Source: Lamellibrachia satsuma (lineage: Eukaryota > Annelida > Polychaeta > Sabellida > Siboglinidae). Taken from it: DNA of 64,000 nt. Below the pieces are notes generated by a model, which did not search any database, was not told the origin of the DNA, and saw nothing but the letters and a program-made list of their open reading frames with translations. Below, piece after piece: positions 1,011-64,000 of this stretch (positions are counted from its first letter, which is position 1; each line of letters opens with the position of its first letter). The stretch covers positions 1 through 64,000 of the forward strand of contig BSQZ01000036.1 of the NCBI GenBank assembly GCA_033239005.1, read 5' to 3'. The position numbers and the translations under genes were made by a program.

Positions 1011-1022
1011 GACACTCTATTT

Positions 1023-30892: not shown

Positions 30893-30928
30893 TTAGAACT
30901 GACACAGCTTGATGCTGAAGTGGCTGAC

Positions 30929-31451
30929 CTTCCATCCATGAACTTCCATCCCTAATGAACTCATGAATCTTGTCCTTCGTTTTGTTCCACATAGTACAGG
31001 ACACAGGTGGAGGCATGTTCATCTCTCCGAGGAGACGCACAGCTTGTTGTCGGTTGCGGCCAATGCTAAACATGGCCATCTCAAATCTGGTGTTGACACT
31101 TTCACCATCAGGCTGAGAGTTCAGTTTGTAAGTGTGGCCACTGTCATGATTCATGCACTCAAATGACAGAGAACTTCGGAGTCCAGCAATGTCCTCTGTG
31201 ACAGTATACCCATGACCACCGCAGTTAGGACAAGTGAAAGCACTGACAAAGTTCACCAGATTTCGCACATCTATCAGTCTGTACCCATCAAGTTCAGTGA
31301 CAACACTCCTCTTCTTGGTGTACTGTAGTTTCTCTTCAGAAGCACACAGCTTGGCAGTTTCTTTCAATGGCCGTGTATACTTGTTGCCATAAAATTTCCG
31401 CTTCTTTGTGGGCTTTGCCCGTGGCATGATGACACTCGAGTAGTGACGAAC
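30929..31451 (-). CDS. Mutator-like transposase, N-terminal coding exon (unit 1)
   Basis: The exon starts after an acceptor (CCAG at 31452-31455), and its ATG is at 31427. The product begins MPRAKPTKKRKFYGNKYTRP and continues GYRLIDVRNLVNFVSAF, CPNCGGHGYTV, a second Cys-rich piece and RFEMAMFSIGRNRQQAVRLL, then EMNMPPPVSCTMW. This is the conserved N-terminus of the large invertebrate Mutator-like transposase domain family, with a CxxC zinc motif. A donor follows at 30928. Unit 1 carries a 14-base internal duplication near 30940 relative to unit 2, and a Ser in place of a Cys in the HDCGHTY motif. The catalytic exons are not found: a TA tract follows directly. It is an exon-level fragment. Confidence 0.7.
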
Positions 31452-32519
31452 CTGGAAAGTAAACAGTGTGATAAATTATTCAGTTATGCCAAAAGTAATC
31501 AAAAGGTAGTGAAATTAGCTTGTATTTATTACATACTAACATCTAAAATAATAAAGTTGAGCAAACGAAGTTGATTGGTCATGGATGATACTGTTATTGT
31601 AAGTAAACAGAATGAAAATACTAAAATATTGCAGTTGGCTTGGTTCGTGGCCTCAGCTAAATTATCTGAATAATAACACTAATTTGACAACATTTTGCAG
31701 TAAAAACACCATCAATTAAATGTATTGGAACTATTACAACATGGTCACAGGCCTAGACCCCCTAGACAGCCCCAGTCAGGATACTAGTTAGTCACTTGTC
31801 TGACTTAGTGACCTGCCCCGTCTAGGCTAGTTAGACTGGCAGTAGGCACAAATTTTCGCCCCGCTCTTCGTCTCTGGGGCGAAAGGCCTGATGTGCATTT
31901 GCTAAAGCCCCATTTTGGCAGTTCTGTAGCCATTTGGCTACGGAACTAATAACTTAAGTTTTAAAACCGATACACACTAACCGTTTCATATGTGTATTCT
32001 GTGACATACCACCGACAATTGGGCGTCAAGAAACTGAAGAAATGTGCTCCAAATAATTACTTATGAGTACTTTTATCGGTGACATAGAAAACATTTCACA
32101 ATTAGCCGCCATACTGTGCACGTGATGTTGCCTTTTGGTCACATGATCAAACGCGATTTCGTGTAGAATGAGGCCAGAAGCACAGACATAAATAAAACAC
32201 CCGTTAGTAAGTTAGTAGTTTATAGGGGCATTATTAATGATGTAACTCTATGGCCAGCAGACGGCAATTCTTAGCGTGACCTTATATAGATCTATGGAAA
32301 TCCCGCGTGCTATTCTCGCTCACAACAACATCCGGTTATATACAAACCTTGACAAGCACATGCGTTCTGACAAAAAGGTAATAATTTCACACTTTTACAT
32401 GGTTATTGTCAGGTAACTTTAGTGATATACATATAAGAATGCATACAGACACGAAAGACGTGTTTATTGCTCTGTTTATGGCGTTTTTGTAAGGTTTCAC
32501 GTTTCATGAAAATACTTAC
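31452..32519. other. Intron of the Mutator-like gene, unit 1; small hairpins
   Basis: No coding signal is seen. A hairpin at 31855-31883 has arms TTCGCCCC and GGGGCGAA around GCTCTTCGTCTCT. A second small one at about 31929 has arms GTAGCC and GGCTAC. In unit 2 the first hairpin persists and the second is destroyed by a deletion. Confidence 0.5.
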
Positions 32520-32870
32520 GTTTCGGCCGAGCGAGATCTTCGCCGTACTAGTAGCAACAGCCAGATAGAAAAACATTGTAGGGCGATTGACTTTGCCTAG
32601 ACTGGCAGTGCCATGCCCGTGACATTTTTCGTTGCTAATTGAACAAAATATTCATATTTATAATAATTACATCACTCTATACATACCTGAGTCCTGGTGG
32701 TTCTTGGTGAAGTGTGGTTGAATGTTCACAACTTGTAAATATAGGCAAAAACGAACTTATATCACAACAATTTATCCAGTAGATGCTCACACGCGGTTTC
32801 TGAACAGGAAGTGAGATCCAGCCAAAGTGCAGTTCTAAGCTTCTCTGTGATTGGCTAATCCAGGAGCGCT
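32520..32870 (-). promoter_or_regulatory. 5' leader exons and CCAAT box of the Mutator-like gene, unit 1
   Basis: Two candidate leader exons are seen on the minus strand. Exon 32520-32634 (donor AAC/gtaagt, acceptor TTAG) splices to the coding exon at 31451. An upstream exon ends at 32687 (CTCAG/gtatgt). An inverted CCAAT box (TGATTGGCTAAT) lies at 32848-32859. In unit 2 the middle exon could encode an in-frame N-terminal extension. Unit 1 has one extra base, which breaks that, so the exons are more likely untranslated. Confidence 0.4.
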
Positions 32871-32939
32871 GCCTATGTTGCTGTACAACTAACAACCAAT
32901 AAAAACCAAGCTTTCACAACATCTTGCCAACTTTATTAA

Positions 32940-33877
32940 GGATGCTCTAGGGTCGGTTCTGTACAGTTTGGTAAAAACCAGGTGTAAATTGGTGGAGTAG
33001 ATCGCAAAAATCTTAATTTTTAAATTATGCATATTTAATTAGGTAACTATTACACAACAGGCTATGGATAGAATGCAACTTTTCTAGTATTTATTTACTT
33101 TATTCAAGTTTGATACTCTGTGGGTGCTTAGAATGATAATGTCAGGTAAAATAAATGAATTAAAAAAAAGAAGTATTTTATTAAATTTTTGGGGTTTAGC
33201 CTGGCCTTAATTAATTTGTCTGTGATGTTACACCCAGCATTTACATAAATGTCTAGTTGCTCAAAATAGCATCAAATAAAAAAAAATTCAGTAATCACAT
33301 CTTTTCTTATGTTGCCAAACCTACTTGTTTTTCCTTTAGTGTGCTGTTATGTGTTATCCTCTTTGTTATTTTATACATGTCTTGTACATATGTAAAAAAA
33401 AATTACTGAATAAAATAAAAAATCAATCATTGTGCATAATCAGAATGTATTAAATGATGCAATTTTTTCCATTTCCACATTTATTCATGGACTGTGATAT
33501 ATGTGTACATCATAAAATAACACAGCAATGGTTTAATGGTAACACTTAAATAGAGATTGACAAGGTTTGAGGATAATAATGATAAACTTAATTCTATAGC
33601 CCCTAAATCATCAGTAACCCGAACTCAGAAGCACTACAAACCAGAAACATGAAGAATTATATCATGAACGGGTACGCACAGAAGTCATCATCAGAACGAG
33701 GGATCGACGAGGATTTACGGTGTAAATGCGATTTAAAAAAGGTGTTTTCTGTTTTGAGTTTGTTCCAGATTTTTGGTGTAGTAGAAAAAACACACTTGAC
33801 CAGCTTAGGCTTTGTTTTAGGAAAAAAACTTGTTATGAGATAGATAATGACAAAACAGTGATGATGGTTTGTCACAG
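32940..33877. other. AT-rich stretch between the Mutator-like promoter and the UBE4A exons, unit 1
   Basis: I see no supported gene. Low-level A-tracts lie at 33165-33180 and 33280-33290. A 64-codon frame at 33649 has no recognisable content. Confidence 0.4.
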
Positions 33878-34600
33878 ACACTGTCCGTGCAGCAACAGTC
33901 GGAGGATGATCTCATGGCAGATGCACCGGAGGAGTTCCTTGGTGCAATCATGGGCACACTGATGAGAGACCCGGTCACACTGCCCAGCTCTGGACAAACG
34001 GTTGACCGCAGCACTATAGCCAGACGCATTCTCAGGTAGGACAACTTCCCTAGCTGTGTCACAGATATACACGTGTTGAGGGTTCATACTTTGTGGTATT
34101 AACGACCAATAAAAACCAGAGGGTGACAAACAGTAAAACTAAACTATCGAATCTGAGCAGCTACAAAGTGAATAAAATAAAATCGAATAGACATGAAACT
34201 TGATAAGCACAAATATCAAGCCCAACTTTTTGTATTTTTTGTGTTCCTAAATTTGATGTATGCAATTATTTTTTTGTTGGCGTTGCTGTTTATATACAAA
34301 ATGTAGGCATGTTTTATGTGGAATATCCATTGTTTGCATACACTCTGACACTAACAAAATTATAGCCTCTTATCAGTCTTCTTAAGTACAAGTATAAAGT
34401 GTAAGTTAAAACACATAACTGTGTTCAACTCATCTCAGAAATAACATTTCCACGTTACTACTGTACTTTTCAGTGACCAGACTGATCCATTCAACCCCCA
34501 GCATCTAACACTGGACATGGTAATCCCAGCTACTGACCTCCGTCTACGCATGGAACAGTGGCTGCAGGAGAAGAAGCAACAGAAGCAGCAGCAGCACTAA
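33878..34600 (+). pseudogene. UBE4A: UBE4A (ubiquitin conjugation factor E4 A), last two exons with the U-box, unit 1
   Basis: The exons are 33878-34035 (5' edge approximate) and 34474-34600. The splice ATTCTCAG/gt...ag/TGACCAG recreates ILSDQTDPFN in frame. The first exon encodes [27 protein letters not shown] and TIARRIL. The second encodes DPFNPQHLTLDMVIPATDLR and ends in a Gln/Lys-rich tail at a TAA. This is the U-box, the E2-binding domain of the E4 ligase, whose conserved form reads DP in the EEFLDP motif and H in the ARHLL motif. Here those are GA and R. Both copies share GA, and only unit 1 has the R. None of the roughly 15 upstream exons expected for UBE4A is visible, so I call it a fragment. 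Strand is opposite to the neighbouring Mutator-like gene. Confidence 0.75.
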
Positions 34601-35158
34601 CAACTACTGACCAATGCTGCCACCAAGCACTGATTGACCAGCCGTGTGGTATCATGTTGCAAGAACCGGTCATGTAAACACCCCTACAATACCAGTTAGT
34701 TTGGCCAATTTGTCACTATGATTGTGTCGTTCGAATTACGGTTGAGTCCACTTTGACTGACCTATGCTGTGGCCAATCAGCGAACGCCACGGCCGACAGC
34801 TGGTGTAACCGTCATGACCTTTCATCAAAGCTTAATTCGGGATTGGCACTAGTCAGTGGGTCGCACACGCAGTGTCACCCGACCGATTGGAGCACAAATC
34901 GATCATGTAAGCCAGCCTTTACTTCAGACACTGATCTACCATTCGCACACACAAGGAACTAACAATATTCAGTTATTGCTATTTCCCTTGTTGATTTAAC
35001 GTTATATCACACATTCGCACAATAATGATAATTTAACAGACATGGACTATGTCATTGATACATAAATTAGTCTGGAGGAAGTTCATTGTTTGAACACAGC
35101 ATGAGTCATGCTCTATATTCAGTGGTCACTTTCATCTTTTAGGTTCACTTTGTACATG

Positions 35159-35192
<34 letters not shown>

Positions 35193-35827
35193 TGTATGCA
35201 TTTAGTTGATTTTGCACATGTGATAGTTGTGAAAAAATCTTTGTGGGTTTTATTTCTGTATACTGTTATTAGCCCAGAGAGGATTTGACATTGTTCAAAG
35301 GTTAAATGGTTGCCTGTAATTACTACCAAGGTGACACTGACCTCCAGGGATGTCCTCTGTAAATGCTGTTATCATGAAGATGTTTGTATATACCAGCATA
35401 TTTATGAGGGATACCATTTTAATTGTTCTACGTGAACAGTGTGGTATATCAAATGAGCAATTTTGGTTTGTTATTATCATAAAGCAAATTTTATACTCGA
35501 GAATGTTTGTTAATGGGATACATGTAAAAATCTGCATGTGCATTCATTTCTTAGAAGTTGAGCAGGATATAAACAATTGGTTCAAAACCAGAAACCTATT
35601 AATGGAAAACGTTGATGTATGGTGTTACCAATATTGTAAATAAAGCATCGGTATGATCAATGTTCTTCAGTAATGCATAAAATTGCTATTATTTCAAGGC
35701 CGTCCTCACAGGATTCATGACATTTTCAGCTGGTAAACCCCCTGTATGGGAACGTCTGAAAAACTTGGGTTAAATGCATGACTGATTTGATGAGGTTTTG
35801 TGGCTGATAGTTTCGAAACAGCAGTAA
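34601..35827. other. No gene seen; (TATG)n microsatellite at 35160-35200
   Basis: This is unique-looking sequence downstream of the UBE4A fragment. Small frames (for example 35350-35643, plus) show no known domain, although the same frame survives in unit 2. A TATG repeat is the only structured feature. Confidence 0.4.
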
Positions 35828-37069: not shown

Positions 37070-40000
37070 TATAATAATAATAATGTTTTATTTCAGGCAA
37101 GAGCCCATAATATTATAAATACATACAGGTAAAAAAACATACATATACACACATGATGAACAATAGAGGTACATGTAGTGTGAAAAATATACATATATAA
37201 ATATATATACATGATGTGTAGTAAAATATATATATAAGATAAGGATAAAAAATATATTTGTATAAAAGTACAAACATCATGAATTAAAAGCATACAATTG
37301 ATCAATCCAATGTTTAATCAATGGACTTTGATAATAAATAAATGAAGATAATTCACAAAAAGTATATTGTCGGATTTTTCCAACCAGCATAAAAGGCTAA
37401 AAATTTATGAGCGAATACGTTCATTAAAGGATTTAACATAATTAGTAGCGAACATATGGCTTGCAGTACAGCGGGGTGACAGGTTGTGTATAATTCTAAA
37501 ACTGTTGTTATAAGCGACAGTAATACCTTTCAGACTCTGTTTTTTAAAATGACACCAAAGACTTGATGTGTACATTGAACCACAGTATGAATTAAATAAA
37601 GTTGTTTTAATGGAATTGTTGCATAAGTAAAATTTTCGGCTAAAGCATTTGCCTGAGCATAGATATATCTTATCTGCCTTGCAATATCGTCATTATCAAT
37701 AAGGTTATTGTTTACAATATGGCCAAGGTATTTACATTTCTCAGTGTAAGGTAGTGTATGGTTATTGATAACAACAGGATGAATATTTTTCTTGTCCCTA
37801 GGTTTGTTATCAATAACCATACAGACAGATTTTTTGGCATTGTACGTTATATCAAACATATTGCCATACTTGGCACAACAATCGGTGAGTTTTCTCAACC
37901 CCGCAACACTAGGTGAAAAAACACAAAGGTCATCGGCATACATCATATGATTCATTATGGTTCCTGCATAAAGACAACCAATTTGTAATTTATTCAAATT
38001 TACACTTAAGTCATCCATGTAAACGTTAAAAAGATGTGGAGAAAGGATTCCACCCTGCTTAACACCGTTTGAAATGGTAAAACAGTCTGAGAAGCTACAA
38101 CACCATCTGACAGTGAATTTCTGGGTTCTGTACCAGTAATAAAGAATGCGAACAATAAAAGAAGGACATCCCCGGTCAATTAGTTTGGTGAATAGCTTAC
38201 TATGATTGACTTTGTCAAAGGCCTTAGAGGCATCCAGCATGGTAACATACATAGATGAGCCATTTGCTATGTAGTGTCGAAAGAGTTCTTTTAATAAAAA
38301 TATGAGCATTTCAGTTGAGTGATGCTTTTTAAATCCAAATTGGTTTACACATGTAGATAAAAAAGTAGAAACCCTGGATAACATCAAGGATTCAAATAAT
38401 TTACTAGCAATTGTGGCTAGAGCAATGGGTCGGTAGTTATGTTATCAGACAGGTCACCCGCCTTATTTTTTATTATGGGGGCTGATTATAATCATCATAG
38501 CATCCGGTAAAAACCATGAATTAACATGCTACTATATAAAAGTGACATGAGAACATGAAGTTTTTCATTCGCATATTTAAAATGTTCGTTACTTACACTA
38601 TCATAACCCGGGGCTTTGCCTACAGGCATTGCATGTATTATATCTTGAATTTCCTTAACATTAACAATCATTTGAACATTAAGCTGTACATTGCTACAGT
38701 ATTCATTAATCTTCTTGATGTTGACTGGAGAGCCAGGTAGAGTTAAGTAGGGATTGGTAATGATGAAGCCACATATTCTTTACATTTTCGACACCTGAAG
38801 CACCACCAACATTGCTAGGATTTGGCAACCTGGCGTTATTCATATGTTTTATGTCCTTCCAGAAGTTTTTGAAGTCATTATTACATAGTTTAGAAGCAAG
38901 TCTTTCAGCTTTAAGAATTTCAGCATTTTTTTCACATAGTCTTTTGTTGCGTTTAAAATGAGCATGTCTAACTTTCATTATATCATACAAGGGACCATGG
39001 CGAGGACTCCCAGCAGACCGCCAGAAGAGAAAGGATTCTCTAGCAGCTTGATGGGAGTCTCTGACTAGGTCATTCCAGCCTAGAACAGTATACTTAGAAG
39101 ATGTGTTGTTAGCCTTAGTAGGGATTACCTCGGCAGATTTTATAATATCATTGTAAAGATTGCTTAGCAAAGTGCGATGGGCTTCATCATTACAATTAGG
39201 GTTAGTACATCTTAAAACCTCATGAGGTACATCAATAGCAGATAAAAGCAAACCGGTTTGTGTATGATAGTTATGGAGATCCTGGGGGAGGCAGCATTCC
39301 ACACAGGATGAGGTGCGTGAATTTGCTCCTGTATGGTGGCTTCAGGGGAAGGTAATAACTTGACATATAGGGAAAAGCATAGAGGTAAGTGGTCGGAAGA
39401 GACACAATCATATTTAACTTCCATATCAGATATTGATGAGTGACTAGAGTGGGTGGTGAACACGTGGTCGAGCCAGCTCCTTGAGCCGTGCGCATCACTA
39501 ACATATGTAAAAGCATCAGAGGGGAGAAGCAATGTGTCACTTGCGATAAGGTGACAGTCGTTTATAAAAGCATTGAGAAATGGAGTAAAAAGACTGGGGT
39601 TCTTAATATCCGCATTAAAATCACCAATGATGAATATATTGGTTGATTCAAATTAATCGCTTATGGCCTGGATTTTGCCAAAAATGTCTAGATATTCATC
39701 AGCATTGTCATCAGTCTGATAGATAGATAGACATTAAGAAGTAGAATAGTGGCGTTAGAGCTGGTAAATTTTAGACCCAGGAGTCTCTTCTCGTCAGCAT
39801 AAATCAACGATAAAGGGGTCGAGTGAACGCCTCCATAAAAAGCAGAGTCCACCATGAGGACGTCCACTCAAACCATCACCATAATCAATGGATGTAATTC
39901 CTCTGGCGTTAAAGTCAGAGTGAACAGAATTAAGGAAAGAAAGGCTCTGTTTAGAGAGCCAGTGTTCCTGGACAGCAAGTATATCTAAAGAGTTTAAGAT

Positions 40001-40110
40001 GTCAACCACGTCAAAAGAACTGTTCCGTATACTTCTGGAGTTAAAGGAAGCAATATGGAGGGGAAAGTCTATAAGTGTGTTGAATCTGTTAGTGTGTGTT
40101 TCCTAGGTGG
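37070..40110 (-). pseudogene. Non-LTR retrotransposon ORF2 (endonuclease and reverse transcriptase), unit 2
   Basis: The copy has the same content as in unit 1 but is better preserved. The reverse transcriptase core is one open frame of 285 codons (37530-38387) with VTMLDASKAFDKVNHSKLF, KQGGILSPHLFNVYMDD, MMYADDLCVF and the thumb segment YTEKCKYLGHIVNNN. A second long frame (38706-39302) carries the endonuclease-to-RT linker. The endonuclease motifs RSWLDHVFTT and SSDHLPL are at about 39420-39500. One frame change near 39290 and another near 38450 remain. Catalytic residues look intact, so this copy died later or decayed less than unit 1. Confidence 0.75.
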
Positions 40111-40296
40111 GAAATACCGTCCAATCTTTGTTCCAGCAGGCCAGAGATCAGCGTCATAGAGCAAGTTAGGTTTAGGAATGTCAACACACAGCTTGAAAGA
40201 AGAATATGAGTTGTGTCGGGTTGGTAATCGCTCACATGAGCATTTCAAACTCAAAGTTGATGACACGTATGTATATAATTCAGTGCTTGGACTACT

Positions 40297-40389
40297 CGGC
40301 CCATGGACAACTCGGCCTGCAACTCGGCCCAGTTCGAGACAGCTCGGAGTTCCGAGACAGCTCGGCTCCGATTTTGAGACAACTCGGAC
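40297..40389. repeat. ACTCGGCC short tandem repeat (unit 2)
   Basis: A contracted version of the tract at 29527-29642. Confidence 0.6.
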
Positions 40390-40719
40390 CAATGATAAAT
40401 GATATGATGGCGCTTAGTTAGAGATAGGTCGGCCCAGGTGTCGAGACAGCTAAAAGATTACATTGCCCCCAGTAGGTAGGTGTACTATAATTATGGAGTA
40501 CACTCTATAATGAATTTATACACTTGTATACGAAGATAAAAAAGTTTACCTTAAATAATCTCTAGAAAGTCAAAATTAAAACACACACGAAGCATTTTAT
40601 ATCTTTATTAATGATAATAATATTTTATTAATAATAATAATAATATAGATACATTATTTAATTATTAATAAAAATATTATTATCATTAATAAATATATAT
40701 ATATATATATAATTTAATT

Positions 40720-41069
40720 AGGGTATTGACTATTGTAAGCAGTTCGCGTGCGAATGCTACAATACGCTCTGCCAGGTCCTCAGGTACACAACCATTACCT
40801 AAATCATTTGTTCCGATGTCAACCAGAACGACAGTTGGTGCAATTACCCACACCGCTCTCAGTTCACGAAAAAGGCGATCCACGGTAAGTCCCCCTTTCC
40901 CTCGGAAAACGACCTTTCCAAACATATCAGCAAGGTCAAGATCTCGTCGATAGTACCTGTGCCGCTCCCCACCTACCTCACCGACTTGGCACACGTGGTG
41001 CATCCTACGCACAAAACTGTGCCCTATCACCAGCAATATCGGCTTTTCCATATTCTGGAAAGATTGCAC
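40720..41069 (-). CDS. SGNH-hydrolase-like ORF1, unit 2
   Basis: The open frame starts MQSFQNMEKPILLVIGHSFV. GHSF is the Ser block, GGLTVDRLF carries the Gly block and VLVDIGTNDLGNG the Asn block of an SGNH esterase. The frame leaves recognisable sequence at about residue 115 and runs into a TA tract, so the C-terminal block with the catalytic His is not seen. It lies upstream of the reverse transcriptase on the same strand, the position expected for an esterase-type ORF1 of a CR1/L2-like element. A free-standing host esterase is less likely given the copy's neighbours. Confidence 0.65.
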
Positions 41070-41578
41070 AAATTGTTAAGTTTGCGTGCCTATTCCCTAC
41101 ATTTTTAGAAGTGCAGTATTACCACACTGTTCTTAGTGCACACAGCACCGATGTTTTATCAGTGTTGTGATTCACGACAGAAACCACGAGGAGGTGACAA
41201 TGTGAACCTTCTGTCTATGTATGTGAGTATGCGAGGATGTTTGTATGAGTGTACGTTTGAGTACATCATCATAAATAGTATGTATATATTATGCTATACA
41301 TATATATTATATGCTGACCTTCTATACTTATATAAATATTATACATTTATGCTATACATCGTACATTATATATATATATATGCTATATCCATGTCACTAT
41401 TAATAAACAATCAACCTACGTAAATAAATATTATATATTATGCTATATATTAAGCTATATATTGTACATATATATATATATAAGATAAATAGCATTTGCC
41501 CTAACGTTTAGTTATAATTTATTTACTCTGTCACATGCTGTTTGAACCAGGATCGCTCTGGTACAGACATCTAACAGA

Positions 41579-41579
<1 letters not shown>

Positions 41580-41641
<62 letters not shown>
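41580..41641. repeat. (TA)n tract, unit 2
   Basis: About 30 TA dinucleotides directly follow the Mutator-like exon on the minus strand. They extend its reading frame artificially as IYIYIY. Confidence 0.95.
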
Positions 41642-41647
<6 letters not shown>

Positions 41648-41677
41648 CTGACACAGCTTGATGCTGAAGTGGCTGAC

Positions 41678-42186
41678 CTTCCATCCCTAATGAACTCATG
41701 AATCTTGTCCTTCGTTTTGTTCCACATAGTACAGGACACAGGTGGAGGCATGTTCATCTCTCCGAGGAGACGCACAGCTTGTTGTCGGTTGCGGCCAATG
41801 CTAAACATGGCCATCTCAAATCTGGTGTTGACACTTTCACCATCAGGCTGAGAGTTCAGTTTGTAAGTGTGGCCACAGTCATGATTCATGCACTCAAATG
41901 ACAGAGAACTTCGGAGTCCAGCAATGTCCTCTGTGACAGTATACCCATGACCACCGCAGTTAGGACAAGTGAAAGCACTGACAAAGTTCACCAGATTTCG
42001 CACATCTATCAGTCTGTACCCATCAAGTTCAGTGACAACACTTCTCTTCTTGGTGTACTGTAGTTTCTCTTCAGAAGCACACGGCTTGGCAGTTTCTTTC
42101 AATGGCCGTGTATACTTGTTGCCATAAAATTTCCGCTTCTTTGTGGGCTTTGCCCGTGGCATGATGACACTCGAGTAGTGACGAAC
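41678..42186 (-). CDS. Mutator-like transposase, N-terminal coding exon (unit 2)
   Basis: The exon has an acceptor before 42186, the ATG at 42162 and a donor GT at 41677. The content is as in unit 1, with intact HDCGHTY and without the 14-base duplication. It is therefore the more ancestral copy. It holds the CPNCGGHGY zinc motif and ends HEFIRDGR before the donor. No catalytic exon follows within the unit. Confidence 0.7.
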
Positions 42187-43233
42187 CTGGAAAGTAAACA
42201 GTGTGATAAATTATTCAGTTATGCCAAAAGTAATCAAAAGGTAGTGAAATTAGCTTGTATTTATTACATACTAACATCTAAAATAATAAAGTTGAGCAAA
42301 TGAAGTTGATTGGTCGTGGGTGATACTGTTATTGTAAGTAAACAGAATGAAAATACTAAAATACTGCAGTTGGCTTGGTCCGTGGCCTCAGCTAAATTAT
42401 CTGAATAATAACACTACTTTGACAACATTTTGCAGTAAAAACACCATCAATTAAATGTATTGGAACTATTACAACATGGTCACAGGCCTAGACCCCCTAG
42501 ACAGCCCCAGTCAGGATACTAGTTAGTCACTTGTCTGACTTAGTGACCTGCCCCGTCTAGGCTAGTTAGACTGGCAGTAGGCAACAATTTTCGCCCCGCT
42601 CTTCGTCTCTGGGGCGAAAGGCCTGACGTGCATTTGCTAAAGCGCCATTTTGGCAGTTCCGTAGCCATTTGGTTTTAAAACCGATACGCACTAACCGTTT
42701 CACATGTGTATTCTGTGACATACCACCGATAATTGGGCGTCAAGAAACTGAAGAAATGTGCTCCAAATAATTACTTATGAGTACGTTTATCGGTGACATA
42801 GAAAACATTTCACAATTAGCCGCCATACTGTGCACGTGATGTTGCCTTTTGGTCACATGATCAAACGCGATTTCGTGTAGAATGAGGCCAGAAGCACAGA
42901 CATAAATAAAACACCCGTTAGTAAGTTAGTAGTTTATAGGGGCATTATTAATGATGTAACTCTATGGCCAGCAGACGGCAATTCTTAGCGTGACCTTATA
43001 TAGATCTATGGAAATCCCGCGTGCTATTCTCGCTCACAACAACATCCGGTTATATACAAACCTTGACAAGCACATGCGTTCTGACAAAAAGGTAATAATT
43101 TCACACTTTTACATGGTTATTGTCAGGTAACTTTAGTGATATACATATAAGAATGCATACAGACACGAAAGACGTGTTTATTGCTCTGTTTATGGCGTTT
43201 TTGTAAGGTTTCACGTTTCATGAAAATACTTAC
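42187..43233. other. Intron of the Mutator-like gene, unit 2
   Basis: It is the equivalent of 31452-32519. Near 42665 about 24 bases are missing, which removes the small GTAGCC hairpin. Confidence 0.5.
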
Positions 43234-43580
43234 GTTTCGACCGAGCGAGATCTTCGCCGTACTAGTAGCAACAGCCAGATAGAAAAACATTGTAGGGCGA
43301 TTGACTTTGCCTAGACTGGCAGTGCCATGCCGTGACATTTTTCGTTGCTAATTGAACAAAATATTCATATTTATAATAATTACATCACTCTATACATACC
43401 TGAGTCCTGGTGGTTCTTGGTGAAGTGTGGTTGAATGTTCACAACATGTAAATATAGGCAAAAACGAACTAATATAACAACAATTTCTCCAGTAGATGCT
43501 CACACGCGGTTTCTGAACAGGAAATGAAATCCAGCCAAAGTGCAGTTCTAAGTTTCTCTGTGATTGGCTAATCCAGGAGC
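43234..43580 (-). promoter_or_regulatory. 5' leader exons and CCAAT box of the Mutator-like gene, unit 2
   Basis: The leader exon 43234-43347 has acceptor TTAG and donor AAC/gtaagt. The upstream leader exon ends at 43400 (CTCAG/gtatgt). An inverted CCAAT box (TGATTGGCTAAT) lies at 43561-43572. In this copy the middle exon is open from MSRHGTASLGK through to the main ATG in frame, which leaves a longer N-terminus possible. Confidence 0.4.
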
Positions 43581-43639
43581 GCTGCCTATGTTGCTGTACA
43601 ACTAACAACCAATAAAAACCAAGCTTTCACAACATCTTG

Positions 43640-44588
43640 CCAACTTTATTAAGGATGCTCTAGGGTCGGTTCTGTACAGTTTGGTAAAAACCAGGTGTAA
43701 ATTGGTGGAGTAGATCGCAAAAATCTTAATTTTTAAATTATGCATATTTAATTAGGTAAATATTACACAACAGGCTATGGATAAAATGCAACTTTTCTAG
43801 TATTTATTTACTTTATTCAAGTTTGATACTCTGTGGGTGCTTAGAATGATAATGTCAAGTAAAATAAATGAATTAAAAAAAATGTATTTTATTCAATTTT
43901 TGGGGTTTAGCCTGGCCTTAATTAATTTGTCTGTGATGTTACACCCAGCATTTATATAAATGTCTAGTTGCTCAAAATAGCATTAAATTTAAAAAAAAAA
44001 TTCAGTAATCACATCTTTTCTTATGTTGCCAAACCTACTTGTTTTTCCTTTAGTGTGCTGTTATGTGTTATCCTCTTTGTTATTTTATACATGTCTTGTA
44101 CATATGTAAAAAAATTACTGAATAAAATAAAAAATCAATCATTGTGCATAATCAGAATGTATTAAATGATGCAATTTTTTCCATTTCCACATTTATTCAT
44201 GGACTGTGATATATGTGTACATCATAAAATAACACAGCAATGGTTTAATGGTAACACTTAAATAGAGATTGACAAGGTTTGAGGATAATAATGATAAACT
44301 TAATTCTATAGCCCCTAAATCATCAGTAACCCGAACTCAGAAGCACTACAAACCAGAAACATGAAGAATTATATCATGAACGGGTACGCACAGAAGTCAT
44401 CATCAGAACGAGGGATCGACGAGGATTTACGGTGTAAATGCGATTTAAAAAATGTGTTTTCTGTTTTGAGTTTGTTCCAGATTTTGGGTGTAGTAGAAAA
44501 AACACACTTGCCCGGCTTAGGCTTTGTTTTAGGAACAAAACTTGTTATGAGATAGATAATGACAGACAGTGATGATGGTTTGTCACAG
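43640..44588. other. AT-rich stretch upstream of the UBE4A exons, unit 2
   Basis: It is the equivalent of 32940-33877. No supported gene is seen. Confidence 0.4.
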
Positions 44589-45303
44589 ACACTGTCCGTG
44601 CAGCAACAGTCGGAGGATGATCTCATGGCAGATGCACCGGAGGAGTTCCTCGGTGCAATCATGGGCACACTGATGAGAGACCCGGTCACACTGCCCAGCT
44701 CTGGACAAACGGTTGACCGCAGCACTATAGCCAGACACATTCTCAGGTAGGACCACTTCCCTAGCTGTGTCACAGATATACACGTGTTGAGGGTTCATAC
44801 TTTGTGGTATTAACGACCAATAAAAACCAGAGGGTGACAAACAGTAAAACTAAACTATCGAATCTGAGCAGCTACAAAGTGAATAAAATAAAATCGAATA
44901 GACATGAAACTTGATAAGCACAAATATCAAGCCCAACTTTTTGTATTTTTTTGTGTTCCTAAATTTGATGTATGCAATTATTTTTTTGTTGGTGTTGCTG
45001 TTTATATACAAAATGTAGGCATGTTTTATGTGGAATATCCATTGTTTGCATACACTCTGACACTAACAAAATTATAGCCTTTTATCAGTCTTCTTAAGTA
45101 CAAGTAAAAAGTGTAAGTTAAAACACATAACTGTGTTCAACTCATCTCAGAAATAACATTTCCACGTTACTACTGTACTTTTCAGTGACCAGACTGATCC
45201 ATTCAACCCCAGCATCTAACACTGGACATGGTAATCCCAGCTACTGACCTCCGTCTACGCATGGAACAGTGGCTGCAGGAGAAGAAGCAACAGAAGCAGC
45301 AGC
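44589..45303 (+). pseudogene. UBE4A: UBE4A U-box exons with a one-base deletion, unit 2
   Basis: The exons are 44589-44746 and from 45186. The first keeps the conserved ARHIL, which unit 1 has lost. In the second exon the run after TTCAA has four C, where unit 1 has five. The frame therefore shifts after DPFNP and stops at TAA 45217-45219. This removes the second half of the U-box (LTLDMVIPATDLR and the C-terminal tail), which is still readable in another frame down to 45303. No E4 activity is expected from this copy. Confidence 0.8.
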
Positions 45304-45869
45304 AGCACTAACAACTACTGACCAATGCTGCCACCAAGCACTGATTGACCAGCCGTGCGGTATCGTGTTGCAAGAACCGGTCATGTAAACACCCCTACAA
45401 TACCAGTTAGTTTGGCCAATTTGTCACTATGATTGTGTCGTTCGAATTACGGTTGAGTCCACTTTGACTGACCTATGCTGTGGCCAATCAGCGAACGCCA
45501 TGGCCGACAGCTGGTGTAACCGTCATGTCCTTTCATCAAAGCTTAATTCGGGATTGGCGCTAGTCAGTGGGTCGCACACGTAGTGTCACCCGACCGATTG
45601 GAGCACAAATCGATCATGTAAGCCAGCCTTTACTTCAGACACTGATCTACCATTCGCACACACAAGGAACTAACAATATTCAGTTATTGCTATTTCCCTT
45701 GTTGATTAAACGTCATATCACACATTCGCACAATATTGATAATTTAACAGACATGGACTATGTCATTGATACATAAATTAGTCTGGAGGAAGTTCATTGT
45801 TTGAACACAGCATGAGTCATGCTCTATATTCAGTGGTCACTTTCATCTTTTAGGTTCACTTTGTACATG

Positions 45870-45903
<34 letters not shown>

Positions 45904-46534
45904 TGCATTTAGTTGATTTTGCACATGTGATAGTTGTGAAAAAATCTTTGTGGGTTTTATTTCTGTATACTGTTATTAGCCCAGAGAGGATTTGACATTG
46001 TTCAAAGGTTAAATGGTTGCCTGTAATTACTACCAAGGTGACACTGACCTCCAGGGATGTCCTCTGTAAATGCTGTTATCATGAAGATGTTTGTATATAC
46101 CAGCATATTTATGAGGGATACCATTTTAATTGTTCTACGTGAACAGTGTGGTATATCAAATGAGCAATTTTGGTTTGTTATTATCATAAAGCAAATTTTA
46201 TACTCGAGAATGTTTGTTAATGGGATACATGTAAAAATCTGCATGTGCATTCATTTCTTAGAAGTCGAGCAGGATATAAACAATTGGTTCAAAACCAGAA
46301 ACCTATTAATGGAAAACGTTGATGTATGGTGTTACCAATGTTGTAAATAAAGCATTGGTATGATCAATGTTCTTCAGTAATGCATAAAATTGCTATTATT
46401 TCAAGGCCGTCCTCACGGGATTCATGACATTTTCAGCTGGTAAACCCCCTGTATGGGAACGTCTGAAAAACTTGGGTTAAATGCATGACTGATTTGATGA
46501 GGTTTTGTGGCTGATAGTTTCGAAACAGCAGTAA
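45304..46534. other. No gene seen; (TATG)n microsatellite at 45870-45905
   Basis: It is the equivalent of 34601-35827. Only the TATG repeat is structured. Confidence 0.4.
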
Positions 46535-47539: not shown

Positions 47540-48285
47540 GGAGTTGCTTACATACACAAGGAACCACCACCTGTGGTGGGCAGAACACACATAATATATG
47601 AGCTACTTCAGCTTGAGACATTCTGTATTCTAGTACGATACTCGAATACACTCACTTTTTCAGCTCACTCGAATGAACTTGTAACATAATATTTGGAATA
47701 GTCCAGCATGTGTTCTGTAATCAAATTCTATATAGCCAGTTGTTATTGCATACTGAAAATTATAATTTTTTTTTACCTGGTGCCACAATACACCTATGTA
47801 AACAGACCCAAATATCACTTTTGTGTGTGGATTACTGAAAAGCCAGACACCTCAACTTGTCGAATTGCACAACATTACATAACCTACTTAGTGGAGTCCT
47901 TAGAAACAACTCACCTTCCCTGTGGAACAGTTAGGTCATATCACTAGGCCATATCAGATAACAGCTGGGCCTGTCCAGGATTTTCTCAACTCCCAATAGA
48001 TATGTGCTCTTCACATGGACTTCAGTAAAGGTGACTGTGTCTAATTAACTGAAATAAACAAAAGTTGACTGCTAAGTAAGTAATTATATTATAATGTGAC
48101 TTGTTCTGCTTTGATGTAACTTATCAGAGGGAGGCTGCACTAGTTTGAATATGTCCCCCCCCCTAATATACTGGTCTCCCGTCACTGTCATCTGGGTTCT
48201 CAGGCGGATTAGACGTCTTTGCATTCAGATAACGGTTTTGTCACTTTCATTAGTAATTTTACTTGGATTTACCTGGGATTTTACA
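47540..48285. other. Unique sequence after the duplication, no gene seen
   Basis: Between the duplication end and the transposase start no domain is recognisable. The frame upstream of 48286 (to 48145) is open but reads as hydrophobic noise, and (C)9 at 48156 is a homopolymer. Confidence 0.4.
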
Positions 48286-50454
48286 ATGGAGGAGACCACA
48301 CATGATAGTAGTAGTAGTAGTAGAAAGAGTGAGGAGAAATGTCCACCTGCTGGTGGAATTAAGATGAAAATTGGCAGCTTCAAGACTGGCCACTGTTACC
48401 ACAAACCATCAGATGCACCAATCCAACAGGAACCCAGTGGGGTTAGCAGTGGGGTTTGGTTGCCACGGCTAAGCCAGAATGACTTTGGCAGATTGGTGCA
48501 AACCACTCCTTCAGGATTGCTGGCAGTTTCCGACGCAGAGGGCCGGCCAGGCACGAGCAAAATTCTACGGCCACAGCTTGATCAATGCCCTGACCTAACA
48601 GACATCTACCTTCAAGCTGACGAACAGGCAGATACTCATGCAGTTTCTAAAATGCGTCTACTTAGTGTAGACAAAAGTGCAGCAATGTGGAATGATTGCT
48701 TTAAAGAGCATGCTAGCAGAGAGGACACATGTATTCTTCCACACTTCGAAGTACATGAGAAAAATTTGGTTTGTGTTGGCAACAGTCATTGTCCTGTACA
48801 GCCTGTCACTACAAGTCACGTATGTACAAACTGTATTCGAAGTAAACACTGGCAGTCGTGGTCAGAAACCGTGTGCTCCAAATGTAGCCATCCATGTAGG
48901 ACTACAAGATACAACGATGGGAAACACAAATTGCGACACATTCTGACAACAACAAACACACCTCCCCAAAGTCGAAGCGGGATGCAAAGGAAATCCAACC
49001 GGTTGCCACAATTACCTCTCAGTCCACGACTGATGACCTACAGCAGAAGAGGAAAAACCAGAGAGATAAATGTTCTGCGTGGTCTTCCAGCAAATGTACC
49101 AATCAATATAAGCATGGATGTGAGGTACAACTCAACATCCCTGAAAAAGCTACGGTTGTGGACAGAGTGCAAGTCAAGCAGTGGGAACACGATTGAATGG
49201 CAGACGGACAAGCATGAGATTCTAGGTTTTCACATGGAGAACAAGCTATGCAGACTAGGCTCATCACTTCACAATTAAGGTCAAAATGTGTCGTGCCCAG
49301 GACATCAAGGATGTACAGCCACGATTTGTGTGGTCGATCCAATATCAGAATATGAAATAGGCCGTCAAATCGGAGTGAGCTTTGCCCAGCAACAAGTCGT
49401 ACTAAAATTCGTTGCAACATATGGTGATGTGAAAGCATTTCATGGGTTACAGGATGCCATGCCAACAATCGAGGCAGAACGGCAGGCTGACACAACACAT
49501 CTCGGTCAGACACAGTTCCGACATATCATGAGAGCATTTTTTTCATCCAGAATGTTCCTGGGAGAGAATGCCATGGTGAGAGCTGAAAACAAGAAAATGT
49601 TTGCAAAGGATGTAAGAACACGATGCCAGAAAATCTACACAGATATGCACACACTTTATGCTGGTGATATTATAATGATAACTACTAAGTTGCCAAAGGT
49701 AATCCAAGCAATACTGGACTGTTATTTTGGCTCATGTCAGAACTGTCAGTGACATGGAATTGTCTGTCGTGGAGGTAAGCGAAACAACTGGTGGAAAAGG
49801 TCACAGCATTTGAAGGCATGTGGCCTGACTCGACTCAATATGACAGATGAAGACCGAGCAACACTTGAAGGATTAATAGAAATGCGACTTGGAAATTCAG
49901 CACTCCAGATGACACGACACAGACTTACAACTGACAAGAATGAATCCATTAACCGATCATTCAGTGCTTCATTGCCAAAGAATGTTAAATTCAGTAGAAA
50001 TGCACATGGACGAGTGAGTTCAGTGATCGATCGCATAAATTATGGAGCGGGGAATTCAATGCTGCGCAAGTTGGAGAATGTATATTGTCCTATTACGAGA
50101 GGAGAACAGGTCGGTAGAGCTGTCAAGCAAATCCAGCATGAGGTGGAATACCAGAGACAATACGAACGTTGATCATCAGTGCGTCTGCATATCCATCATA
50201 CCAAGTTAAAGCGCATGCAGAACTACTTCGATTCAAACAGAAACCACGGTCCAGAAGATCGATACCTGAAGTGTCAGCTTGAACCAAAACCATCTACTCG
50301 TAAAGGGAAGAAAAGGCAAGCAGCAATAGTTAAGCCAGTGGTCACAAGGAGTCGCCGCAGAAAGACAACACTGCCAACTGCAAACAGGGAAGATCATCCT
50401 TATTCATTGCAATCACGAAAGTCTGCTGATCACTGTTATGCCAGCAGAAAGTAG
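48286..50454 (+). pseudogene. Mutator-like transposase-type pseudogene (copy B), three in-frame stops
   Basis: One frame runs about 720 codons from MEETTHDSSSSSRK to a TAG at 50452. It is interrupted only by TAA 49276, TGA 49750 and TGA 50170, with no frameshift. Visible blocks are a Cys cluster (CTNCIRSKHW, then CSKCSHPC), NVPINISMDVRY, which could hold a catalytic Asp, CPGHQGCTATI, a helical middle, TDKNESINRSFSASLPKNVK and a Lys/Arg-rich tail. The CPGHxGCTA and NESINRSF blocks recall the middle and C-terminal parts of large Mutator-like transposases of invertebrates, but I cannot place all catalytic residues. The start at 48286 is chosen because the upstream open frame lacks protein-like content. 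An upstream exon is possible. Copy A at 1-306 shows that the third stop was CGA. Confidence 0.6.
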
Positions 50455-59400: not shown

Positions 59401-60612
59401 TGGTTATGACGCCTTCAGGTGGCATGGGTAATTTCTGAGATCACTCCTTCGGGTGTGATGGGCCTAGTAGCTTTCATCGTGATTATTAAACCATACAGTG
59501 GCGTTGAGGTCAAGATTTTGGTTCCTATAGTACATAGGGCAGATGTTTTTCACTTTACTACTCTCCTGTGCACCATACGGTGTAAATGGTCGGATTGTTA
59601 TATTGGTCCCTATGGTGTAAAGGGCATGTTCATTTTCATTTGTTCTACTCCGCCATACGGTGTAAATGGTCGGATTGTTATATTGGTCCCTATGGTGTAA
59701 AGGGCATGTTCATTTTCATTTGTTCTATTCCGCCATACGGTGTAAATGGTCGGATTGTTATATTGGTCCCTATGGTGTAAAGGGCATGTTCATTTTCATT
59801 TGTTCTATTCCGCCATACGGTGTAAATGGTTAGATTGTTATATTGGTCCCTATGGTGTAAAGGGCATGTTCATTTTCATTTGTTCTATTCCGCCATACGG
59901 TGTAAATGGTTAGATTGTTATATTGGTCCCTATGGTGTAAAGGGCGTGTTCATTTTCATTTGTTCTATTCCGCCATACGGTGTAAATGGTCGGATTGTTA
60001 TATTGGTCCCTATGGTTTAAAGGGCATGTTCATTTTCATTTGTTCTATTCCGCCATACGGTGTAAATGGTCGGATTATTATATTGGTCCCCACGGTGTAC
60101 AGGGCATGTTCACCATACGGTGAAAATAGTTGGACTATGAACGTGGTCCCTACATTTTACAGGGCACGTTAATTTTAATTTTCTTATTCCGCCATACGGT
60201 GTAAATGGGCGGACTAGGGGTTTGGCCCTATGGTGTACAGGGCATTTTTTATTTTATTCCGCCATACGGTGTAAATGGTCGGTGTATAATCTTTGGCCCT
60301 ATGGTGTACAGGGCATTTGTATTTGTCTTATTCCGCCATACGATGTAAATGGTCGGTTTATGATCTTTGGCCCTATGGTGTACAGGGCATTTTTATTTTT
60401 CTTATTCCGCCATACGGTGTAAATTGTCGGTTTATGTTCTTTGGCCCTATGGTGTACAGGGCAGGTTACTTTTAATTTTTCTGGTTCCGCCATACGGTGG
60501 GTATGGTGGCTGTGATGGTTTTTCCCACAGTGTACAGGGCATGTTAATCATTAATTGTCTTATTCCGCCATACAGTGTGAATGGTCGGTTTATGCTATCG
60601 TTCGAACGCTAG
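59401..60612 (+). repeat. Hairpin-repeat array 1: 80-base unit with two hairpins
   Basis: From 59573 the 80-base unit repeats about six times almost exactly, with starts at 59573, 59653, 59733, 59813, 59893, 59973 and 60053. It then degenerates to about 60612. Each unit has two 17-base hairpins: CCAT/ATGG around ACGGTGTAA and, 35 bases on, CCCT/AGGG around ATGGTGTAA. Later copies have a five-pair stem, for example GCCCT/AGGGC around ATGGTGTAC at 60225-60243. Upstream (59401-59545) are looser relatives such as ATCAC/GTGAT near 59440 and CCTAT/ATAGG at 59524. Frames reading through the array are artefacts of the period. Confidence 0.85.
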
Positions 60613-62280
60613 GTAGTGCATGTTAATTTTAATTTCTTGTCCCACCATACATTGTAACTTGTCTGACGATAATATGGGTCCCCGTGATGTTCATGGCATG
60701 GTAATTTTATTATTCCGCCATTTGGGGTAAATGACCGGTTTACACTATTCATCCCTACGGTGTACAGGGCATTGTAATTTTCATTTGTCTGATTCCACCA
60801 TACAGTTGGATTACCGGAGCGGGTAACGTTGTAGTTTGTGAGTGGATAATGTTGGTCAAGGGTTAACCGTGGTCCCTAGTTTGTAATGACACAGCGTACA
60901 TAAGGTTCACATTACTACGATTGGGTGCAGTGTTCAACTTGAACAGTAAATGTTACAGCAACGGAGCAACTTCATCTTCTCTTAAGGGCGCGTGCATTCG
61001 TTGAGAATACTCACAGTTGTGTAGTAATTGGCATTGTCGCTTGCCAGATCGTCTAGCTGCTTACTGATAATACCGCAGACGATCAGATCGGTATAATAAG
61101 CCGTGAACGCATCTTCCAGGTTCGCAAGATTTTATTAACGCAGAACTGTTGATTGTACAACATAGACTGGTTCTCTACCATTGTTCTTGTGTCTCCCATT
61201 TAACATTTAAAAGTCTTCAATAAATTTTGTTTTCTAATGGTAAGGTAGGTATGGGCCGGCGTGGCCCATCCTTGCCGATAATTTTGAGTCCAAATTGAAC
61301 GAGGTGCGTGGTAATTTAGATCGCGCGCACCCGTTGTTTTATGAGTCTATTTCTGGCCTATTTATACCAGAGCTTTCAGAAGAACCCCGCCTCAGTGGAG
61401 GCGCGGTTAACCATTTTAGGAAATCGAGAAAGCCGTTATTGGCCGATGTCCAAATACAATCGTCATCCCCGTACATGCTGGAAATGACCGTCGTATGCAA
61501 GGTATCGGGTCACCTTCTGAACCCCCCAGGACTGGGAGACCTTCTTGTGTCCTTGGGGACGGTCAGTTGCCAACTAAACTAGTTTCTTATGGCCTGCATT
61601 CTAAATCGGGTAAACATTTCTCCCGTTTGACAGTCCAGTTATTATTACAGTCGGGGCGACTCTACCCCTCCCTACTGTGTATACTAAACAATAAGCAAAG
61701 CTGCAAACTGGCCAAAAACTAGCTTGCCTTACATAAGTTGTATCAACCTGGGTTTTCTTTATGCTAACGTTAAATCATTGATTAAACATGTCTGCAATGA
61801 CCGCTATCTCTGTTCTTACAATTTTAGGCTGACCAAACCTTAAAATGAGATGCGCGTGATGCGGGAGTTGTCACGTGTAGCGCTGCAACTGGTAAGTCCT
61901 ACGCGTGGTCACGACGCGGTTGCGTCAGCCTATGTTGATCGCCAGGTGGCGGCATCATCCGTAGTGACCCCCATCGAGTCATCCGGTCGTCCGGCCAGCT
62001 TCTGCCGTTGGTCGCCAGGTGGTGGCACCTACTGCTCCAGCGCCTGTGCCCTCGACGAGTGGACAAGCCGATATTCACTCTGCCTCCAGTGCTCGTCAAG
62101 CGGCGACTTCCGTGGCTCCTGAGCCAGTGCCCTCATCGAATCATCAGGATACTGGCATGGTGGATCCTCCTTGGCCGACAACCGACCGCTTGATGGAGAC
62201 ATCCACTGACCTTCCTGTCCCAGTTTTTTCTATTTCATGCGGTGTAAACGAGGAAACTGGATTAAGCCATGCAGTAAGAA
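60613..62280. other. Spacer between the hairpin arrays; unclassified frames
   Basis: Degenerate hairpin-like words persist to about 60800. Two stretches look mildly protein-like. One is 61295-61582 (plus; LDRAHPLFYESISGLFIPEL). The other is 62019-62230 (plus; a Pro/Ser/Thr-rich run with SVAPEPVPSSNHQDTG). Both could be fragments of a retroelement gag-like frame, but no diagnostic motif is visible. Confidence that either is a gene is low. Confidence 0.3.
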
Positions 62281-63545
62281 TATTGAAAATGTAACTAATC
62301 TATGAGGGGGAAGTGGAGCAGTTTTGTCAACCCATGAGGTGAGTAAGCGGATCTAAATTTAGTTAATCCATGCAGTGATAGGGAGAAGTTTTTGTTATTT
62401 CCATGCGGTGTCACGGGTGTAAATAAAAAGATAACGTTTGCTAGGCCATGTGGTGTAAATGGCACAATTGTATTCCATACGTTGAAAATGGAGGGTTTCT
62501 GTATTCCGTGCGGTGAAAACGGAAAGTGACATGGAGAAGTTTTGTTATTTCCATACGGTGTAAATGGAAATTAACTCTTGTTAAGCCATGCGGTGTAAAT
62601 GGCACAATTGTATTACGTGCGGTGTAAACGGAGCAATGTCGGTAGTACGTGCGGTGAAAACGGAAAGTGATATGGAGACTTTGTTATTTCCATGCGGTGT
62701 AAATGGAAATTAACGTTTGGTAAGCCATGCGGTGTAAATGGCACAATTGTATTCCGTGCGGTGGAAACGGAGCAATTTCTGTAGTCCGTGCAGTGAAAAC
62801 GGAAAGTGATATGGAAAAGTTCTGTTATTGCCATGCGGTATAAATTGAAATTAACTTTTGGTAAGCCATGCTGTGTAAATAACACATTTATATTCCGTAC
62901 GGTGTAAACGGAGCAGTTTCGATAGTCCGTGCGGTGTACACGGAGATGGTGGGTTAACTCATGCAATAGGAAATTTATTGAAAATTTCACTAATCCGTGC
63001 ATTGCAGTCGGAACAGTTTTGTTAACCCAGGCAGCGAGTAAGCGGATGTACATTTGGGTAATACATGCAGTGATATAGAGACGTTTTGTTATTTCCATGC
63101 GGTGTATATGAACGCTAACTTTTGTTAAGCCATGCAACTAAATGACACCAGTTTATTCTGTGCGGTGTAAGCGGAGAATTGGTACGGAGAAGGTTTATTT
63201 CCATGCGGTGTAAATGGCACAATTGTAGTCCGTGCGGTGAAACGGAGGAGTTTCTATATTCCATGCTGTGTATATGGAAAATTGGGTGAATCCATGAAGT
63301 GGACAAATTACTGAAATTTTACTAATCCATGCAGACGAGGCGGAACAGTTTTGTTACCCCTTGCAGGGAGAAAACGGATGTAAATATGTTTGTTTTGTTA
63401 GGTCCATGCATTGTAATTGGAGTATAAGTTTTATTAAGGCATGCAGTGCAAATGGCACAATTGTAGAACCCTTTATATTCCGTGCGGCAAATGGAGAAAT
63501 TTTTGCATTCCATGTACTATTTAAGCCATATAGTGTAAATGGCAC
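62281..63545 (+). repeat. Hairpin-repeat array 2: higher-order unit of about 139 bases with four hairpins
   Basis: Well-formed hairpins are ATTTCCAT/ATGGAAAT at 62547-62571 and 62686-62710, GCCAT/ATGGC at 62585-62603, 62724-62742 and 63525-63543, and TTCCGT/ACGGAA at 62504-62524. Further ones are TCCGT/ACGGA at 62753-62771, 62894-62912 and 62926-62944, TCCAT/ATGGA at 62474-62492 and TTCCAT/ATGGAA at 63259-63279. All have a nine-base loop close to GCGGTGTAA in the same orientation. Like hairpins recur about 139 bases apart (62547 to 62686, 62585 to 62724), which defines a higher-order unit. Degenerate copies fill the rest. The 174-codon minus-strand frame at 62613-63137 is repeat translation. 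Confidence 0.85.
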
Positions 63546-64000
63546 AATTTTCATGATAATATAGGTGACCGTACGTTAACGTTTAGTTATGGTTTAATGG
63601 TAGTTCGTGATATGTAATGACACAGCTGGTCCTGGGTACCACAATTAATAATTATAGATGCTGCCACAAGTGGCAATCAAGCAGCGACACCGATGGCGCG
63701 TTGAGTCAGCAGGGACTGCAGCAGCTGCATCGACACCACACCTTCAACAATTGGTCAAAAGGCTGGCTAGGTTGCTCCCCATGGATGGCCTGCTGGAAGC
63801 GGCCATAAATCTACACGTATCAGTACTGTCGCTTATATGTTGTAGGTGCATAGTGAGACATTCTCGCCGATAATCTGGAGAGTGGCATAAATTATAGTTT
63901 AATAATTGTAATTGTTGCTGGTACAATCAGTCGACAGCTTAAACTGGTGTCAGTATGTAGTGGTATTATGGTGGTTGCAATTAAGCACAGTAGTAAGCTG
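63546..64000. other. No gene seen
   Basis: The sequence after the last hairpin has no motif I can name. Small frames at 63617-63873 have no recognisable content. Confidence 0.4.

Follow-up and report, generated by a model that had tools for sequence, protein, structure and literature searches.

The window, by which we mean the whole 64,000-nucleotide stretch of the annelid Lamellibrachia satsuma that was analysed (contig BSQZ01000036.1, positions 1 to 64,000), carries near its right end two separate arrays of short palindromes, ~1.4 kb apart with no unit in the gap, and on sequence comparison these arrays belong to a degenerate, non-autonomous derivative of a dispersed tyrosine-recombinase (YR) retrotransposon. 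The initial annotation had described a single array of hairpins over this interval, with a constant loop and stems that something keeps paired. We favour, at about even confidence, the reading that the arrays are the repeat region of the non-autonomous derivative and constitute a repeated dyad-symmetric regulatory module. The window copy is laid out as follows.

59491..60810, + strand: array 1 (outer limits by eye), in which CCGCCAT-RYGGTGTAA-ATGGTCGG and (G)GCCCT-RYGGTGTAM-AGGGC alternate, ~35 bp apart.
60811..62230, + strand: spacer between the arrays, containing a decayed gag-like fragment at 61845-62223.
62231..63545, + strand: array 2 (limits by eye), with the hairpin types ATTTCCAT/ATGGAAAT, GCCAT/ATGGC and, twice, TCCGT/ACGGA in a 141-bp higher-order unit.
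63546..64000, + strand: right flank of the element, upstream of a decayed YR remnant (L052:5546-6378).

The loop RYGGTGTAA occurs 27 times in the window, always on the + strand, against 2.9 occurrences expected from shuffles (0 of 100 shuffles reached 27), and 25 of the 27 fall within 59577-63213. Under a looser unit rule that allowed up to two loop mismatches, required at least four of six anchor letters and demanded no pairing, the interval 59401-63560 contained 56 units, compared with 32 on the entire - strand and 16 on the remaining + strand of the window. A perfect 4-bp stem was present in 37 of the 56 (CCAT/ATGG in 21, CCCT/AGGG in 11 and CCGT/ACGG in 5), which, together with the confinement of exact loops to the + strand, bears out the earlier count of more than 30 short palindromes in one orientation. 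The loop proved far from constant, with 29 different spellings among the 56 units, and the statement that the stems differ yet stay paired holds for the three main stem types, which are matched at the third pair, but not for the 19 of 56 units with broken stems. At the pair that the initial annotation numbered third (L2-R2 here), the 56 units had A-T in 30, C-G in 13, G-C in 8 and a mismatch in 5; the fifth pair was T-A in 15, G-C in 11, A-T in 3, G-T or T-G in 13 and something else in 14. The units represent a few founder types set in higher-order repeats, of ~70-80 bp with two hairpin types in array 1 and ~141 bp with four in array 2, and the core of array 1 is an 80-bp double unit repeated 6.8 times at 59573-60112, followed by decaying units. 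The family is real and genome-wide: the pattern CCRTRCGGTGTAAAYGG with at most one mismatch gave 861 + 1002 matches in the 735-Mb genome, compared with 11 + 20 for the reversed pattern.

Copies of the spacer were found at no fewer than 40 places in the genome (40 scored of 70 candidates), and the element copies read share their ends. Among the left ends read, 20 of 22 begin TGAATTT (A/TGAATTT, the slash marking the junction) and all 22 are preceded by A; GCATAAA was found in 23 of the 27 right ends read; and 7 of the 22 left ends directly abut another right end, head to tail. No target-site duplication was seen at the element ends, judged by eye. These ends bear on the suggestion that the hairpins serve as sites at which the element's own tyrosine recombinase acts on folded DNA, comparable to integron attC sites: the element family does encode a YR, but the ends lie elsewhere, no array unit marks an end in the copies examined, and nothing points to the loop-recognising recombinase that had been proposed, so that we consider this explanation highly improbable. 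The 3' end of the window copy (..TTTCATAAA) is located at C36:64378, 378 bases past the window, while its left end and SGNH open reading frame (ORF) are missing (that stretch had no match in L052) and only coding remnants are left.

The right part of the non-autonomous copies contains tyrosine-recombinase pieces that lie in different frames. Pfam and PDB searches with the YR remnant alone gave nothing useful, and the identity of the element therefore rests on fuller relatives that carry both reverse transcriptase (RT) and YR. An ORF of L072 matched RT (PF00078, 1.9e-13) and, below the cut-off, RNase H (0.062), and YR ORFs matched PF00589 at 1.3e-6 in L071 (above the cut-off) and at 6.4e-6 in L072 (just below it), with weak PDB matches to Tre and Cre recombinase chains (best E 0.0007 and 0.0038). 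The relatives consequently combine RT/RNase H with a tyrosine recombinase in one element, which is the combination that defines YR retrotransposons (DIRS order). Remnants in L054 resemble L071 at 64% identity for the YR piece and 59% for the gag piece, and the fragment at 61845-62223 of the window is 88% identical to L054:5480-5960, itself gag-like (59% identity to the L071 gag ORF). No obvious long inverted repeats, a DIRS1-like trait, were seen in the element ends, for which no dedicated test was run.

Several further observations concern the element and its copies. Split direct repeats of the form A1-body-B1-A2-B2 are a mark of Ngaro-like YR retrotransposons. Segment B is followed directly by segment A (~300 bp) in L054, L056, L058, L065, L066, L075 and L077, and this arrangement is absent from the fuller L071 and L072 as well as from L052, L055, L057 and L063, among others. 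A piece of ~0.8-1 kb stands directly behind the long element at L054:8629-9632, L056:8541-9547 and L058:8706-9479. Its 300-bp left end and its right end are those of the long element (in L058 just 34 bp of the right end is present), different sequence of ~440 bp separates the two, and the piece is either a second short element or a set of split direct repeats. The palindrome CGCATAAAGGATTTTATGCG at L054:2691-2710, with 8-base arms, lies 19 bp inside the left end and echoes the element ends GCATAAA and TTTATG. A Helitron was considered and rejected, given that A is constant at the left junctions whereas T does not consistently open the right flanks. A search of a phage collection with the whole interval returned no match, and a viral link was set aside, the one exact match of a 17-base pattern in each of 43 viral contigs being treated as chance.

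The order in the fuller relatives is 5' end, SGNH ORF, palindrome array, gag, RT/RNase H, YR and 3' end, where fuller does not mean intact: the SGNH, gag and RT frames are all broken in L071+L078, L072 is without the 5' part and begins inside gag, and L079 is covered in part. In family F1 (L078+L071 and L079) an array of ~0.85-0.92 kb lies between the GDSL/SGNH hydrolase ORF and gag, and array 1 of the window is homologous to it. Array 2 occupies the place where fuller copies carry the remaining gag, RT/RNase H and most of YR, and was not found in L071, L072 or L079 (the last covered only as far as RNase H). Tandem arrays were also present in the SGNH-gag spacer of F2 (L081 and L086; 86-87-bp unit), F3 (L083; 42-bp unit) and F5 (L085; 54-bp unit, 27.6 copies), which brings the total to 6 of 10 relative loci and 4 of 5 sampled YR families of one genome, a comparison that draws on few copies (two each for F1 and F2, one each for F3 and F5). 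The SGNH ORF matched PF13472 in these four families, above the curated cut-off only in F3, and the loci without an SGNH-gag array (L072, L080, L082 and L084) lack all or part of that ORF. Elsewhere in the element parts read, repeats with a repeat finder score of at least 100 were limited to 2.2 copies in the L071 gag, 5.1 copies of a 28-bp unit before the L082 SGNH ORF, and repeats of unclear membership in L072.

The array units are largely unrelated between families. The loop of the F5 hairpins, CGGTGT, equals the core of the loop in F1 but sits on quite different arms (GGG/CCC), with two main forms accounting for 18 of the 34 loop matches listed, and the two main hairpins of F2 are AGTGTG/CACACT and CAGTG/CACTG. 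Most of the F5 54-bp array is open in one frame for 440 codons (L085, reverse, 730-2049), with no domain support. A coding role for the arrays was considered, the periods of 42, 54, 72 and 87 bp being multiples of three, but F1 unit lengths vary and stops occur in the frames (by eye, no formal test), and this candidate was rejected.

Splice sites were scored with metazoan weights over the stretch from leader to gag. In the four families whose leader was read, that is, all but F5, the best-scoring donor of that stretch lay upstream of the SGNH ORF (by ~60-120 bases on our own reading) and read CAG/GTGAGT in F1, GAG/GTGAGT in F2, CAG/GTGTGT in F3 and CAG/GTGAGC in F4, the slash again marking the junction. 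At the gag start, as read, TTNCAG/RATG was found in 6 of 6 copies; the TTNCAGR context precedes only 6 of the 645 ATGs in these six copies, and those six are the ones read as gag starts, with the looser CAGR at 4 more ATGs. With a donor before SGNH and an acceptor at the gag start, the array is therefore probably intronic, an argument that rests on the recurrence of TTNCAG at the gag start rather than on acceptor score. The SGNH ORF and the array would probably form one intron ending directly before the gag start codon, and gag, RT and YR would probably be read from spliced RNA.

Covariation was assessed in 1112 F1 units from 24 loci (632 unique) by an average-product-corrected (APC) G statistic over 435 column pairs. 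The pair L2-R2 ranked 1 of 435 and L5-R5 ranked 3 of 435, and only these two of the five stem pairs covary, by way of the three main stem types CCAT, CCCT and CCGT. The earlier observation that the third and fifth pairs change in step is thus real, but what it separates is a few tandem-amplified founder types carried by a mobile element. Against a tree-aware null, in which the observed number of changes was scattered over the same tree, neither pair was significant (L2-R2, E = 0.68; L5-R5, E = 10.9). On the full tree, pairs 1-5 showed 285 breaks, 5 compensated doubles (3.5 expected) and 48 repairs (68.5 expected). Ongoing upkeep of pairing, and with it the proposal that something keeps or copies the symmetry, is not supported by these values. 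When the stem columns were left out of the tree, compensated doubles numbered 1, 6, 1, 1 and 3 for pairs 1-5 (0.4 to 1.0 expected each); the 6 at pair 2 compare with 0.94 expected (1 of 300 simulations as high), and the 3 at pair 5, a weaker case, with 1.0 expected (26 of 300 simulations). A founder-level signal of matched change remains. We read the matched stem differences as the product of a few founder types followed by free decay and not of ongoing maintenance; the initial annotation had itself named two or three founder sequences amplified in tandem as an outcome that would speak against its proposal, and with three main stems this is close to what was found.

One process that bears directly on these counts is template switching within a hairpin, by which one arm would be copied onto the other to yield matched stem types. 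It is documented for RNA genes, where it keeps the loop while fixing the stems (PMC8794818), and the excess of doubles at pair 2 on the stem-free tree agrees with it, but on the full tree doubles were near the null (5 vs 3.5) and repairs below it (48 vs 68.5). Template switching acting now, as had been suggested, is not borne out, and as an explanation of the matched stem types it is improbable; it could account for the rise of the matched founders.

The propensity of the units to form hairpins was compared with shuffles unit by unit. F1 array 2 exceeded them (2 of 400 shuffles), F1 array 1 was borderline (19 of 400; 41 of 400 for its 72-base form), and six control tandem units submitted to the same test gave 333, 400, 400, 400, 109 and 37 of 400. 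Fold tests were run in windows of 120 bases. On the + strand, mean z for six F1 arrays ranged from -1.5 (L078) to +0.2, with +0.2 and +0.1 for the window copy, while array 1 in the fuller F1 copies had mean z of -1.5 and -0.9, compared with +0.1 and +0.2 in their coding windows; the - strand folded better than the + strand in 9 of 9 arrays or spacers tested. Single changes from the paired state comprised 61 G-T and 82 A-C, and wobble on the coding strand is accordingly not favoured. An Rfam scan of the window at gathering scores returned no match, so that neither of the two marks of a structured RNA family, significant covariation and an Rfam model, was found.

These results weigh on the idea that selection acts on RNA hairpins in the element transcript, for example on intronic stem-loops that would tune splicing or bind Gag. 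The probable intronic position of the arrays speaks for it, as do founder types paired over four to five bases (one with G-T at the fifth) and fold scores of array 1 in fuller F1 copies that lie below those of their coding windows. The + strand nevertheless folds weakly overall, the - strand does so better throughout, and G-U intermediates are not favoured (61 vs 82), which goes against the selection on a folded RNA that had been put forward; we judge it an improbable explanation as well.

The main rival to a regulatory module is a neutral minisatellite, in which slippage and unequal exchange fill a tolerant non-coding spacer and the palindromes are accidents of the founders. It is favoured by the free decay of the stems (285 breaks vs 5 compensations), by unit sequences that differ largely from family to family, and by the hairpin content of F2, F3 and F5 units, which is not above shuffles. 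Set against it are the arrays in the same spacer in four of five sampled families with few elsewhere in the element parts read, stem pairs that make up two of the top three covarying column pairs, and array-2 hairpins that exceed shuffles (2 of 400). On balance we consider the neutral minisatellite possible but doubtful.

Under the regulatory-module reading, each palindrome would be a dyad-symmetric site for a DNA-binding protein, and the repeated sites might form an enhancer- or insulator-like control region, by analogy with the role proposed for Sirevirus repeated motifs and the known one of the gypsy insulator. The arrays would have grown through tandem amplification, and a non-autonomous lineage, in which array 1 was enlarged and coding sequence gave way to array 2, would have spread. 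Several observations count against this reading. A simple homodimer site would not need the conserved asymmetric nine-base spacer. F2, F3 and F5 units taken singly are no more palindromic than shuffles (51, 116 and 181 of 400, respectively), and dyad symmetry beyond F1 is suggestive only. In F4 (L082) the SGNH ORF is truncated and the spacer before gag is free of arrays, an absence that we read as a probable deletion, F4 having been set aside as truncated after its result was seen. L084, chosen for a 48% relative, is without SGNH, gag or a large array; L080 contains no more than a short element match, beside other tandem repeats; and only in F2 and F4 does the gag acceptor score among the top six.

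A broader proposal, that SGNH-bearing YR elements keep a pre-gag intronic dyad array whose position and format are conserved and whose sequence is replaced wholesale between families, strikes us as unlikely. If true, it would mean a fixed function with interchangeable sequence, for example an array of binding sites that evolves together with a protein of the element or of the host and that non-autonomous parasites of the element amplify.

Arrays of palindromes in retrotransposons are of a known kind. In plant Ty1/copia elements of the Sirevirus lineage, repeated motifs (RM boxes) occur as 8-32 palindromic units per element in non-coding regions, with a core CGG-CCG in 12 of 13 elements and outer arms that vary between elements yet stay symmetric, and they have been proposed as transcriptional cis-regulatory sites (PMC2829016). 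In both cases a retrotransposon carries numerous palindromic units in non-coding sequence. The constant core lies in the arms there, however, whereas here the loop is the more constant part; the motifs stand in long terminal repeats and before ENV there and in the SGNH-gag spacer, probably an intron, here; and the arrays described here form higher-order tandem repeats in another class of retrotransposon and another host. The relatives carry YR and RT, which we take to place them outside Ty1/copia and hence outside the Sirevirus lineage, no integrase search having been run.

In the gypsy insulator of Drosophila, Su(Hw) has 12 sites within the 5' untranslated region (PMC2374998), and the likeness to our arrays is that one binding site is repeated in a cluster in the 5' non-coding part of a retrotransposon. 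It differs in that the Su(Hw) consensus quoted in that paper is not a long palindrome, that a binding protein is known for gypsy only, and that the element class is another. Amphibian Ngaro elements carry an SGNH hydrolase ORF after YR according to the available portion of PMC9210276, and the Ngaro/DIRS elements treated there share with ours gag, RT/RNase H, YR and an SGNH hydrolase ORF, the lack of a target-site duplication here being judged by eye. In our elements, by contrast, SGNH lies upstream of gag and not after YR, and the spacer holds a tandem palindrome array, a feature unmentioned for Ngaro/DIRS in the same portion of that paper. As to the earlier remark that no described family of this sort was known, arrays of palindromic units in retrotransposons have been described (PMC2829016). 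Within the open-licence literature, the only papers searched, we recognised no report in which YR elements carry tandem or hairpin arrays between SGNH and gag, which is weak evidence; not found there were such spacer arrays with units that differ by family and with amplification in a non-autonomous derivative.

Other features of the window lie outside the palindrome element. The stretches 26941-35198 and 37530-45905, ~10.7 kb apart, are similar, with matching ORFs, tandem repeats paired at 29584/40331, 29852/40599 and 35156/45867 and loop 9-mers at 33717/44429, and suggest a large tandem duplication. An SGNH/GDSL-like ORF occurs at 40686-41075 (-) (PF13472, 6.4e-07, below the cut-off). Transposase ORFs include one of DDE_1/Tc5 type at 12890-14128 (+) (PF03184, 7.6e-18), followed by a 72-bp tandem repeat at 14203-14454, and Mutator-like transposase matches (PF20700) at 30849-31475 (ORF 30846-31475, -) and 48115-49749 (ORF 48115-49752, +); the frame at 41512-42210 (-) is a near repeat of that at 30846-31475 (-). 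An ORF at 531-1016 (-) contains the zinc-binding loop of homing endonucleases (PF05551, 1.3e-08).

YR retrotransposons are poorly understood, and little is known of how their gene expression is controlled. Palindromic units repeated at one constant position in several families of a single genome offer a concrete candidate for a control region, and the predicted splice sites make that idea directly testable. The arrays also illustrate how a few founder repeats, once dispersed by a mobile element, can come to look like a family of covarying RNAs.

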